The notes beneath the pieces were generated by a model, which was given only the letters and a program-made list of their open reading frames with translations, searched no databases and had not been told where the DNA came from. A program made the translations under genes and the position numbers. From the NCBI RefSeq assembly GCF_001746365.1, contig NZ_MJAJ01000015.1, forward strand, positions 1 to 64,000: DNA of 64,000 nucleotides, read 5' to 3'. This DNA comes from Streptomyces sp. LUP30. Lineage in GTDB: Bacteria > Actinomycetota > Actinomycetes > Streptomycetales > Streptomycetaceae. This document shows positions 49,003-51,150 of this stretch, piece by piece. Position 1 is the first letter of the stretch. Each line of letters starts with the position of its first letter.

Positions 49003-49030
49003 TCACGCGGGGCTGAGCAGCCCCGCGTGA
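49003..49030. terminator. Terminator using the dioxygenase's last codons
   Basis: TCACGCGGGGCT-GAGC-AGCCCCGCGTGA, perfect 12-bp stem between convergent genes. On the minus strand the same bases encode the last eight residues (HAGLLSPA) and stop codon of the dioxygenase. Confidence 0.85.
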
Positions 49031-50040
49031 TGCCGCTCGGCCACCGGCGGATGGGCGCGCAGCTTGCCCTTCAGCTCGTTGAAGCCGTACTCGGCGAACA
49101 GCGGGTTGGCCGGATCGTCGGTCACACCGGGCGCGGCCGAGGCGTAGGGGAACGGCAACGGCTCCACGCGCGCGTCCAGGCGGGGGTTGTAGAAGAACGG
49201 CACCGAGAACCGCTCCACGGCGCTCGGCGGTGACACCACCCGGTGGTTGGTGGCGACCAGGTACCCGGCGGTCGCGACCTCCAGCAGCTCGCCGAGGTTG
49301 ACCACGAACGCGCCCGGCAGCGGCGGGACGTCGTGGAACGCGCCGTCCTCCCGCTGCACCTGGAGGCCGCCCACCTCGTCCTGGAGCAGCAGCGTCAGGA
49401 ACCCGTAGTCCTTGTGTGCCCCGACCCCCTGCCCGGCGCCGTCCCCGGCGCTGCCCGGATACCGCACGAGCTTCAGGTGCGGATGCGCCCGGTCGCCGAA
49501 CACCGGGTCGTAGAAGCCGGCCGGCGCGCCGATCGCGGCGAGCAGTTCGTGCAGCAGTTTCTCGGCGACGGCGCTCAGCCGCTCGATCCAGGCGAGCGCG
49601 GCCGTGCGCAGCTCGGGCAGCCCGGCGGGCCACTGGTTGGGTCCCTGGAGCCACCAGTAGGCGGGCTCGTCCGGTCCGGGCCTCCGCGCGGGCCGCTCGG
49701 CCCCTATGTCCAGCTGGTCGCGCCAGTCCTGCCGGCCGCCGGTGCGCTCGTCGCCGGTCCGCGTGTACCCGCGGAAGTGGGGCGAGTTCACGTTGTCGAG
49801 GGCGAGCCGCCGGTCCTCGGGCAGCGCGAAGAAGGCGCGCATGGCGGACAGCAGCGCTTCCGTCTCACGCTCGCCGACCCCGTGCCCGACCAGCTGGAAG
49901 AACCCCACGTCATGGGCGGCGCTGTGCAGCTGGGCGTGGAGCAGCGCCCGTGCCTGGGGGCCGCGGTCGGCGGCGGAGAGATCGATGATCGGCAACTGCC
50001 GGTAGGACGGGTTCGTCGCGAGGGCTGTCACGTTCGTCAT
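49003..50040 (-). CDS. Isopenicillin N synthase-family Fe(II)/2-oxoglutarate-type dioxygenase
   Basis: 345 aa from ATG at 50040. N-terminal DIOX_N region LPIIDLSA...GFFQLVGHGV; the catalytic jelly roll has His-x-Asp in VGAHKDYGFLTLLLQD (about residue 210), the distal His in ATNHRVVSPP and the Arg-x-Ser substrate/2OG residues in ERFSVPFFYNP. No beta-lactam cluster genes are nearby, so true isopenicillin N synthase is unlikely. The substrate is unknown. The upstream leader with two micro-ORFs suggests attenuation-type control. Confidence 0.92.
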   Translation of the reverse strand: MTNVTALATNPSYRQLPIIDLSAADRGPQARALLHAQLHSAAHDVGFFQLVGHGVGERETEALLSAMRAFFALPEDRRLALDNVNSPHFRGYTRTGDERTGGRQDWRDQLDIGAERPARRPGPDEPAYWWLQGPNQWPAGLPELRTAALAWIERLSAVAEKLLHELLAAIGAPAGFYDPVFGDRAHPHLKLVRYPGSAGDGAGQGVGAHKDYGFLTLLLQDEVGGLQVQREDGAFHDVPPLPGAFVVNLGELLEVATAGYLVATNHRVVSPPSAVERFSVPFFYNPRLDARVEPLPFPYASAAPGVTDDPANPLFAEYGFNELKGKLRAHPPVAERHHAGLLSPA

Positions 50041-50165: not shown

Positions 50166-50240
50166 TCAGACGGAGCGTCGACAGCCCATGCTCGTGACGC
50201 GGACGTAGTCCACGTGGCGGCGTCGAACGAGCGAAAGCAT
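50166..50240 (-). CDS. RRHVD-type leader peptide upstream of the dioxygenase
   Basis: 24 codons from ATG at 50240 to TGA at 50166. It opens MLSLVRRRHVDYVRV and ends TSMGCRRSV. The VRRRHVD core followed several residues later by a Cys is the pattern of short actinobacterial leader peptides found upstream of sulfur-metabolism and transport operons, where translation of the Cys codon is thought to sense cysteine supply. It ends 125 nt before the dioxygenase ATG on the same strand. No strong ribosome site is visible. It is too short for standard gene callers. Function is inferred from the motif and position. Confidence 0.7.
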   Translation of the reverse strand: MLSLVRRRHVDYVRVTSMGCRRSV

Positions 50241-50364
50241 GCGCCCAGAGTACTGCCTGACGAAAGATCCGTACGTGGCGCGGGTCACGCGCCGCAGAAC
50301 CTGCGGGCGCGCAGTGCCGCAGAAGCCGAATTCGCCGCGGCCGGGGGCGCCGGAGAACGCAGAC

Positions 50365-50425
50365 GACCCGCGAGTCTGGTCCTCGCTCAGGAGGGCCGGC
50401 CGGACTTACCGGCGACTCGCGGGTC
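50365..50425 (-). promoter_or_regulatory. 12-bp perfect long-range inverted repeat in the dioxygenase leader
   Basis: GACCCGCGAGTC (50365-50376) and GACTCGCGGGTC (50414-50425) enclose 37 nt that can fold further (CCGGCCGG core). It lies between the micro-ORF and the RRHVD leader peptide. Candidate RNA switch, attenuator or protein-binding structure. Confidence 0.65.
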
Positions 50426-50503
50426 GGGTGACTGCTGGGTATGGGCCGGCTGCACGTGTCTCACGTACTGGTCCGGCACCGCACAGAGTGTGGTGGCGAG
50501 CCG

Positions 50504-50542
50504 CTAGCCCGCAGCCACCTCACGAGTCCGGGAATCACACAT
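50504..50542 (-). CDS. 12-codon micro-ORF with extended Shine-Dalgarno
   Basis: ATG at 50542 to TAG at 50504 encodes MCDSRTREVAAG. It follows the 15-nt ribosome-binding site by 5 nt and a good promoter. Being so short and so strongly primed for initiation, it is best seen as a regulatory upstream ORF or ribosome-loading site rather than a functional protein. Confidence 0.5.
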   Translation of the reverse strand: MCDSRTREVAAG

Positions 50543-50547
50543 CTACC

Positions 50548-50562
50548 GGATCACCTCCTTTC
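50548..50562 (-). promoter_or_regulatory. Extended Shine-Dalgarno complementary to the 16S rRNA 3' end
   Basis: The minus strand reads GAAAGGAGGTGATCC. The plus strand GGATCACCTCCTTTC is the 3'-terminal sequence of 16S rRNA, so pairing could extend over 15 bases. Ordinary sites in this window pair over 4-7. Confidence 0.8.
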
Positions 50563-50574
50563 GCGTGTACTGGA

Positions 50575-50603
50575 ACCCTAAGAAGTGTTCCCTCGCCAAT
50601 CAA
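50575..50603 (-). promoter_or_regulatory. Near-consensus vegetative promoter for the dioxygenase leader
   Basis: On the minus strand TTGATT (50598-50603), 17-nt spacer, TAGGGT (50575-50580), matching the Streptomyces HrdB pattern. Transcription would start near 50568, only a few bases before the extended Shine-Dalgarno. Confidence 0.7.
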
Positions 50604-50691
50604 CTGTTTTTCCGACATGGCTGCCGCGAGGGCCCGGTCGCGGACGACGCGGGCTGTTGACGTCCTCGCGGCGACGCGGTTCGCTGGTGGT

Positions 50692-51150
50692 GTGAATGAT
50701 CTTCGTCTGCGTACGGAGGCAGTGGCCGACGAGGCCGCGCTGGAACGGTGGCGGTACGTCCACAACATGATCGTGCCGCCGGCCGCGATGTCCCTCGACG
50801 AGGTACGCGAACGGGCAGGGCGCTTCCGGCTGCGGAACGCCTACGTCGGTGACGTCCTGGTCGGCTGCTCGACCGTACGGCCGCCCGACGGCGAGCGGGC
50901 CGTGGCGACCGTCATCGCGCGCGTACTGCCCGAGTACAGGGGTAGAGGCTACGGAGCCGCCCTGTACGACGACGGTCTCGCCCACGCGCGCGGCCTCGGC
51001 GCCCGGGTGGTCGAGACCTGCGTGCTCGCCGTCAACGAGGACGGTCTGCGGTTCGCGCAGGCGCGCGGTTTCGTCGAGGTCGAGCGATACGTGCTGGACG
51101 ACGGGACGGCGGAATGGGTCGACCTGCGGCTCCTGTCCCGCCAAGGCTGA
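50692..51150 (+). CDS. GNAT-family N-acetyltransferase
   Basis: 152 aa from GTG at 50692; an in-frame ATG at 50617 would add 25 residues that overlap the divergent promoter and look non-coding. An N-terminal helix (ADEAALERWRYVHNMIVPPA) precedes strands GRFRLRNAYVGDVLVGC and AVATVIARVLPEYRGRGYGA, the acetyl-CoA-binding R-x-x-G-x-G/A motif. LAVNEDGLRFAQARGFVEVE is the C-terminal GNAT signature. Divergent from the dioxygenase leader. Substrate unknown. Confidence 0.87.
   Translation: MNDLRLRTEAVADEAALERWRYVHNMIVPPAAMSLDEVRERAGRFRLRNAYVGDVLVGCSTVRPPDGERAVATVIARVLPEYRGRGYGAALYDDGLAHARGLGARVVETCVLAVNEDGLRFAQARGFVEVERYVLDDGTAEWVDLRLLSRQG

Follow-up and report, generated by a model that had tools for sequence, protein, structure and literature searches.

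Several described systems resemble in part the small RNA of Streptomyces sp. LUP30 that is analysed here. The dual-function sRNAs SgrS/SgrT and RNAIII are small RNAs with an open reading frame (ORF), as is the LUP30 RNA; they differ from it in that the LUP30 peptide is not conserved and the codons of the ORF are themselves structural RNA. The attenuator-derived sRNA rnTrpL, which acts in trans, is comparable to the LUP30 RNA. Leader-peptide attenuators and the trans-acting sRNAs derived from them, such as peTrpL of S. meliloti (PMC7298713), share with it a short ORF whose translation would choose the RNA structure, and the LUP30 RNA may likewise act in trans; it has, however, neither a conserved downstream operon nor a run of regulatory codons, and is not a released attenuator. 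In Staphylococcus aureus, extended start-proximal Shine-Dalgarno (SD) sequences precede small regulatory ORFs (PMC13009471), although there the upstream ORF controls a gene in cis, whereas the LUP30 RNA stands alone. The unrelated alphaproteobacterial sRNA CC2171 (RF01867) of Caulobacter vibrioides starts with GAAAGGAGGUGAUCC close to its 5' end and is a possible convergent case; since the LUP30 RNA scores only 14.4 bits with its model, where the gathering score is 75, and the two are otherwise dissimilar, this resemblance would be convergent at most, and RF01867 had no match in the LUP30 genome.

The closest described system is a family already on record. The Rfam scan of the window, i.e., the whole 64,000-nt stretch of DNA that was analysed, returned a single match, to RF02471 (Ms_IGR-5), at 50568-50358 on the minus strand (100.8 bits, E 1.7e-21, model positions 1-184 by cmscan; gathering score 45), and the 6S RNA model gave no match at its gathering score in the window. 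The LUP30 RNA is a full-length member of the family, with the same terminator arms and the same 5' end, and is predicted to measure 211 nt, from A50568 to a 3' end near 50358; the model begins where transcription is predicted to start, 7 nt past the -10 hexamer, and extends to the terminator hairpin. Judged from sequence comparison, the SD and micro-ORF stretch is thus the 5' end of a stand-alone RNA of known family. Rfam, in contrast, treats RF02471 as non-coding, and its printed structure contains neither the helix P2 nor the pseudoknot described below.

The RNA was present in 54 of 61 relatives and in 198 of the 297 genomes sampled from the class, nearly always in one copy, and pattern matches were also obtained in a few deeper Actinomycetota genomes, from other classes of the phylum. 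A phage or plasmid origin was discarded, as neither the phage collection nor the plasmid collection held a match. Homologues of Ms_IGR-5 have been listed as an own transcription unit in S. avermitilis (PMC8780764) and validated by RNA-seq in S. lividans (PMC8079986), and in M. smegmatis Ms_IGR-5 overlaps a transcript (PMC10454040). Furthermore, ribosome profiling placed significant ribosome reads on the homologues of M. abscessus and M. smegmatis, reads that are here not resolved to the micro-ORF and that, as the same study cautions, occur on many non-coding RNAs (PMC4974804). No functional study of the Ms_IGR-5 RNA was found in the open-access literature searched. The proposal that the M. tuberculosis homologue is the essential sRNA ncRv0810c was rejected because the RNA at the mycobacterial locus L118 lies between genes that we take, by sequence recognition, to be pabC-like and nitrobindin-like.

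Upstream of the RNA, the minus strand carries a putative -35 element, TTGATT (50603-50598), and, after a spacer of 17 nt, a -10 element, TAGGGT (50580-50575), as an earlier reading of this DNA from its letters alone (hereafter, the sequence-only reading) had described. The -10 element fits TANNNT, a motif of S. coelicolor promoters (PMC4895711), and, of 212 distinct homologous promoters, about 75% share the TT near -35; the generic sigma-70 scan did not call the promoter at 50603-50575.

The extended SD, GAAAGGAGGTGATCC (50562-50548, minus strand), is complementary over 15 nt to the genome's own 16S 3' end, GGATCACCTCCTTTCT, and 5 nt separate the complementary stretch from the ATG, which bears out what the sequence-only reading had claimed. 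Apart from this site, the exact 14-mer AAAGGAGGTGATCC is present in the 9.18-Mb genome solely as the antisense of the 16S 3' end; with no more than two mismatches allowed, 0.36 chance hits would be expected in the window for a 13-mer, and the match found here is exact. The same reading had asked whether conservation extends beyond AGGAGG, and it does: 170 of 170 distinct homologous SD segments retained 12 or more contiguous pairs with the 16S tail (mean of 17, G-U allowed), against 3% of 337 background GGAGGTG sites. On this comparison of sequences, the complementarity is not due to chance, since the homologous segments keep a long pairing that background sites seldom reach. Moreover, among 187 segments the positions from -4 to +10 around GGAGGTG were invariant where they face a C or an A of 16S rRNA, and where they face a U or a G they changed almost only from A to G or from C to T, so that the 16S pairing is kept through G-U wobbles.

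Such long pairing may hold or stall the 30S subunit. The pairing takes in almost the entire 16S tail and has been retained across all lineages, as would be expected of a 30S sponge, whose product would be the bound 30S subunit itself: the over-long SD would titrate free 16S 3' tails and shift the balance between SD-led mRNAs and leaderless mRNAs, the latter being common in actinobacteria, and the micro-ORF would only let the ribosome leave. Capture rather than output would also suit the lower efficiency of SDs longer than six nucleotides in E. coli (PMC2176067). Nevertheless, a sponge leaves unexplained both the fixed stop position of the micro-ORF and the covarying P2 and pseudoknot formed by its codons, and we consider it unlikely, though one of the two main rivals to the reading preferred below.

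The 12-codon micro-ORF, MCDSRTREVAAG plus a TAG stop, extends over 50542-50504 of the minus strand (ATG at 50542, TAG at 50506-50504) and holds up as the sequence-only reading had proposed it, its frame being kept across the 194 distinct 5' segments to which 220 homologous loci were reduced. A start codon ATG, TTG or GTG lies at the same place in 191 of the 194, two of these one codon earlier, and the remaining three segments have CTG, ATT or no start codon; the ORF counts 12 codons in 189 segments and 13 in two. The position of the stop was identical in all 194 (TAG 168, TGA 14, TAA 12), and none of the homologue searches relied on a start or a stop codon. In addition, the spacing from SD to start drifts between 10 and 13 nt, whereas the length from start to stop shifts by whole codons only, and C stands as the first base of the NTG start in only 2 of 187 cases, in loci of 71% G+C. 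The sequence-only reading had made its case depend in part on the conservation of the extended SD and the ORF in related species, and both are kept. Rfam files RF02471 as an sRNA, in line with a plain non-coding RNA whose ORF is accidental; with start, in-frame length and stop conserved across 194 distinct segments despite the interchange of codons, we find this explanation hardly credible.

Codons 2-4 contain 33% G+C, against 71% for the loci. Together with the strong SD, these A/U-rich codons predict heavy ribosome occupancy, which would suit an explanation in which translation protects or matures the RNA: the ribosome would keep RNase or Rho off the RNA, and a separate part of the sRNA would act in trans. 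Coupling of translation to RNA protection is common in bacteria. However, such protection creates no need for ORF codons to pair with a 3' element or a terminator-side loop, and we regard translation-dependent stability, the other main rival, as quite unlikely.

Codons 8-9 form a second SD-like stretch, GAGGTG (50521-50516, minus strand), 9 nt before the stop, a distance that is constant in all homologues. These codons read GAG GTG in each of the 194 segments, with no synonym ever used; a search pattern containing GAGGTG yielded loci L100-L219, and the loci L001-L099, which came from the Rfam model, all carry it too. The invariance might stem from P2 alone. The remainder of the peptide is far from constant, as replacements are radical at position 5 (R/W/G), position 6 (T/I/M) and position 7 (R/C/G/S), and positions 2-4 are near-free in amino acid. 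A conserved peptide sequence, as looked for in a dual-function sRNA, was accordingly not found among the 194 segments. The conserved frame, length, start and stop would agree with a dual-function RNA whose 12-residue peptide is the functional product, but the radical replacements, the near-free positions 2-4 and the third bases of codon 6, which follow RNA pairing, speak against it, and the absence of synonyms in the invariant E-V codons points to selection on nucleotides; we therefore judge a functional peptide improbable. Since the start and stop of the frame are exactly conserved and the amino acids are not, the best reading of these comparisons is that the act of translation is selected, not the peptide.

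Two helices are predicted to be made of ORF codons. In the long-range helix P2, the 5' strand GGTGGCTGC (50519-50511, from the end of codon 8 to codon 11) pairs with GCAGTCACC (50435-50427), located just before the terminator; in the pseudoknot, GGACT of codons 5-6 (50529-50525) pairs with AGTCC (50406-50402) in the loop of the terminator-side hairpin (50413-50395). Both strands of P2 are supported by covariation and folding, and the hairpin by sequence, by the Rfam structure and by folding. The terminator stem, recognised from sequence and from the Rfam structure, consists of the 5' arm CGACCCGCGAGTC (50426-50414) and the 3' arm at 50376-50364, all on the minus strand. The ORF strand hence takes part, through P2 and the pseudoknot, in structure that adjoins the terminator.

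The 3' element of P2 was located in the homologues by its place before the terminator, without use of complementarity, and its natural strand pairs include GGTGACCATC/GATGGTCACC, GGTGTTCGCC/GGTGGACACC and GGTGTCCGTC/GACGGACACC. Matched P2 pairing exceeded all 5000 shuffles, where the shuffle p-values, like the covariation statistics, ignore the tree, i.e., the relatedness of the sequences. For the pseudoknot, the combinations were GGAC/GTCC in 150 cases, GGAT/ATCC in 16, GGAT/GTCC in four and GGAC/ATCC in two, an association between GGAY and the loop RTCC of p 5e-17 (Fisher, without tree correction), and the GGAT/ATCC type occurred in both Kitasatosporales and Propionibacteriales. Furthermore, covariation links the base preceding the loop motif to the third base of codon 6. 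In an alignment of 63 sequences, 97.2% of the cells of P2 and the pseudoknot were paired, with 30 double changes against 7.3 +/- 2.1 in shuffled data, a signal that collapses when the strands are slid; RNAalifold recovered both helices unprompted and extended the pseudoknot by a fifth pair, which shows 23 double changes. From these alignments we conclude that the ORF, through codons 5-6 and 8-11, contributes one strand to each of two covarying helices, the opposite strands of which flank and cap the terminator hairpin. A ribosome that translates the ORF has to open P2 as well as the pseudoknot.

When 159 homologues were folded as ensembles by a thermodynamic model without the pseudoknot, the pair probability of P2 averaged 0.75; once the nucleotides under a ribosome at the stop codon were blocked, the probability that the P2 3' strand is unpaired rose from 0.14 to 0.45. 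In LUP30's own RNA, this modelled ribosome effect on the P2 3' strand was absent (0.31 to 0.29). Other pairings were considered and set aside. A hairpin of the SD tail (RTYC) with GGAC was 97.6% paired, yet showed no covariation; the helix of the SD with codons 9-11 that is printed in the Rfam structure has no covariation support either and was discarded. A local hairpin around the stop codon was weakly better than in swapped sequences (mean z -0.33), and an internal mimic of the 16S tail did not stand as a general feature within the class (5% versus 2% in shuffled sequences). Such internal mimics, GGTCACCTCCTTC, GGATCACCCCC and GGGATCACCTA, were seen in three deep homologues, L227 and L228 (both of other classes) and L214 (an unclassified member of Actinomycetota), respectively; by their sequences, these could pair with their own SD.

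Downstream of the RNA in LUP30, on the same strand, lies a 2OG-Fe(II) dioxygenase gene (49003-50040, minus strand), and the sequence-only reading had proposed an attenuation system for it. This position favours a cis attenuator in LUP30 itself, but among the Streptomyces loci examined the dioxygenase lies between the RNA and pdxH only in LUP30, and thus looks like a recent insertion on the gene order; in other Streptomyces, pdxH comes next after the RNA, in convergent orientation, with citA behind it. Among 25 named loci, which represent many orders, the genes downstream were mostly unrelated and in nine cases convergent, and no conserved same-strand downstream gene was found across the loci compared. 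Moreover, the RNA closes with a terminator hairpin of its own, the codon table of the micro-ORF shows no run of regulatory codons as in a leader, and the dioxygenase has a possible separate leader in a 24-codon ORF, MLSLVRRRHVDYVRVTSMGCRRSV (50240-50166, minus strand), about 125 nt upstream of it. The proposed control of the dioxygenase is contradicted by these findings, and we hold a cis attenuator to be very improbable; the RNA would work like an attenuator leader but fails on the conserved downstream gene, and is therefore not filed as an attenuator.

The MLSLVRRRHVDYVRVTSMGCRRSV ORF resembles the Ms4527A Cys-rich leader peptide family at 26.6 bits, below the cut-off of 45. On the opposite strand, a mechanically called GNAT ORF (50239-51150, plus strand) runs antisense across the entire small RNA and constitutes an annotation hazard; its true start probably lies beyond the RNA promoter.

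The sequence-only reading had also suggested a ribosome-sensing or ribosome-loading regulatory element. Attenuation of the dioxygenase falls away from this proposal, and what stands is a conserved element that engages ribosomes, to judge by its SD, its ORF frame and the ribosome reads in mycobacteria (PMC4974804). Our preferred reading, to which we give an even chance, is that of a stand-alone RNA with a regulatory activity that ribosomes gate. As long as no ribosome is bound, the RNA would fold into the form with P2 and the pseudoknot; the extended SD would capture a 30S subunit, which would initiate on the micro-ORF, and the translating or terminating ribosome would occupy codons 7-12, breaking P2 and the pseudoknot and freeing GCAGUCACC and the GUCC loop, a gating step proposed on thermodynamic modelling without the pseudoknot. 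The second SD-like stretch, GAGGUG, at its constant distance from the stop, may slow the release of the terminating ribosome. With the fold lost or gained, the pairing capacity or the stability of the RNA would change, so that its activity would report ribosome availability; the active form could be either the opened or the closed fold. The fuller version is a phylum-wide class of stand-alone RNA switch that would sense ribosome availability: a maximal SD would capture the 30S subunit, a fixed 12-codon ORF without a selected peptide would lead the ribosome through the pseudoknot and the long-range helix formed by the ORF's codons, and the RNA so opened would act in trans. This version is put forward tentatively and is on balance doubtful.

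In brief, the micro-ORF, the 16S-tail pairing, P2 and the pseudoknot of RF02471 appear to be undescribed in the literature searched. The family is conserved in most of the actinobacterial orders sampled, including Streptomyces, mycobacteria and others, and has so far been filed as non-coding; a conserved micro-ORF, a 16S-complementary leader and covarying helices of ORF codons make it a testable ribosome-coupled RNA. To our knowledge, no Hfq-type sRNA system has been established in actinobacteria, and the RF02471 RNA may connect translation capacity to gene control in these bacteria.
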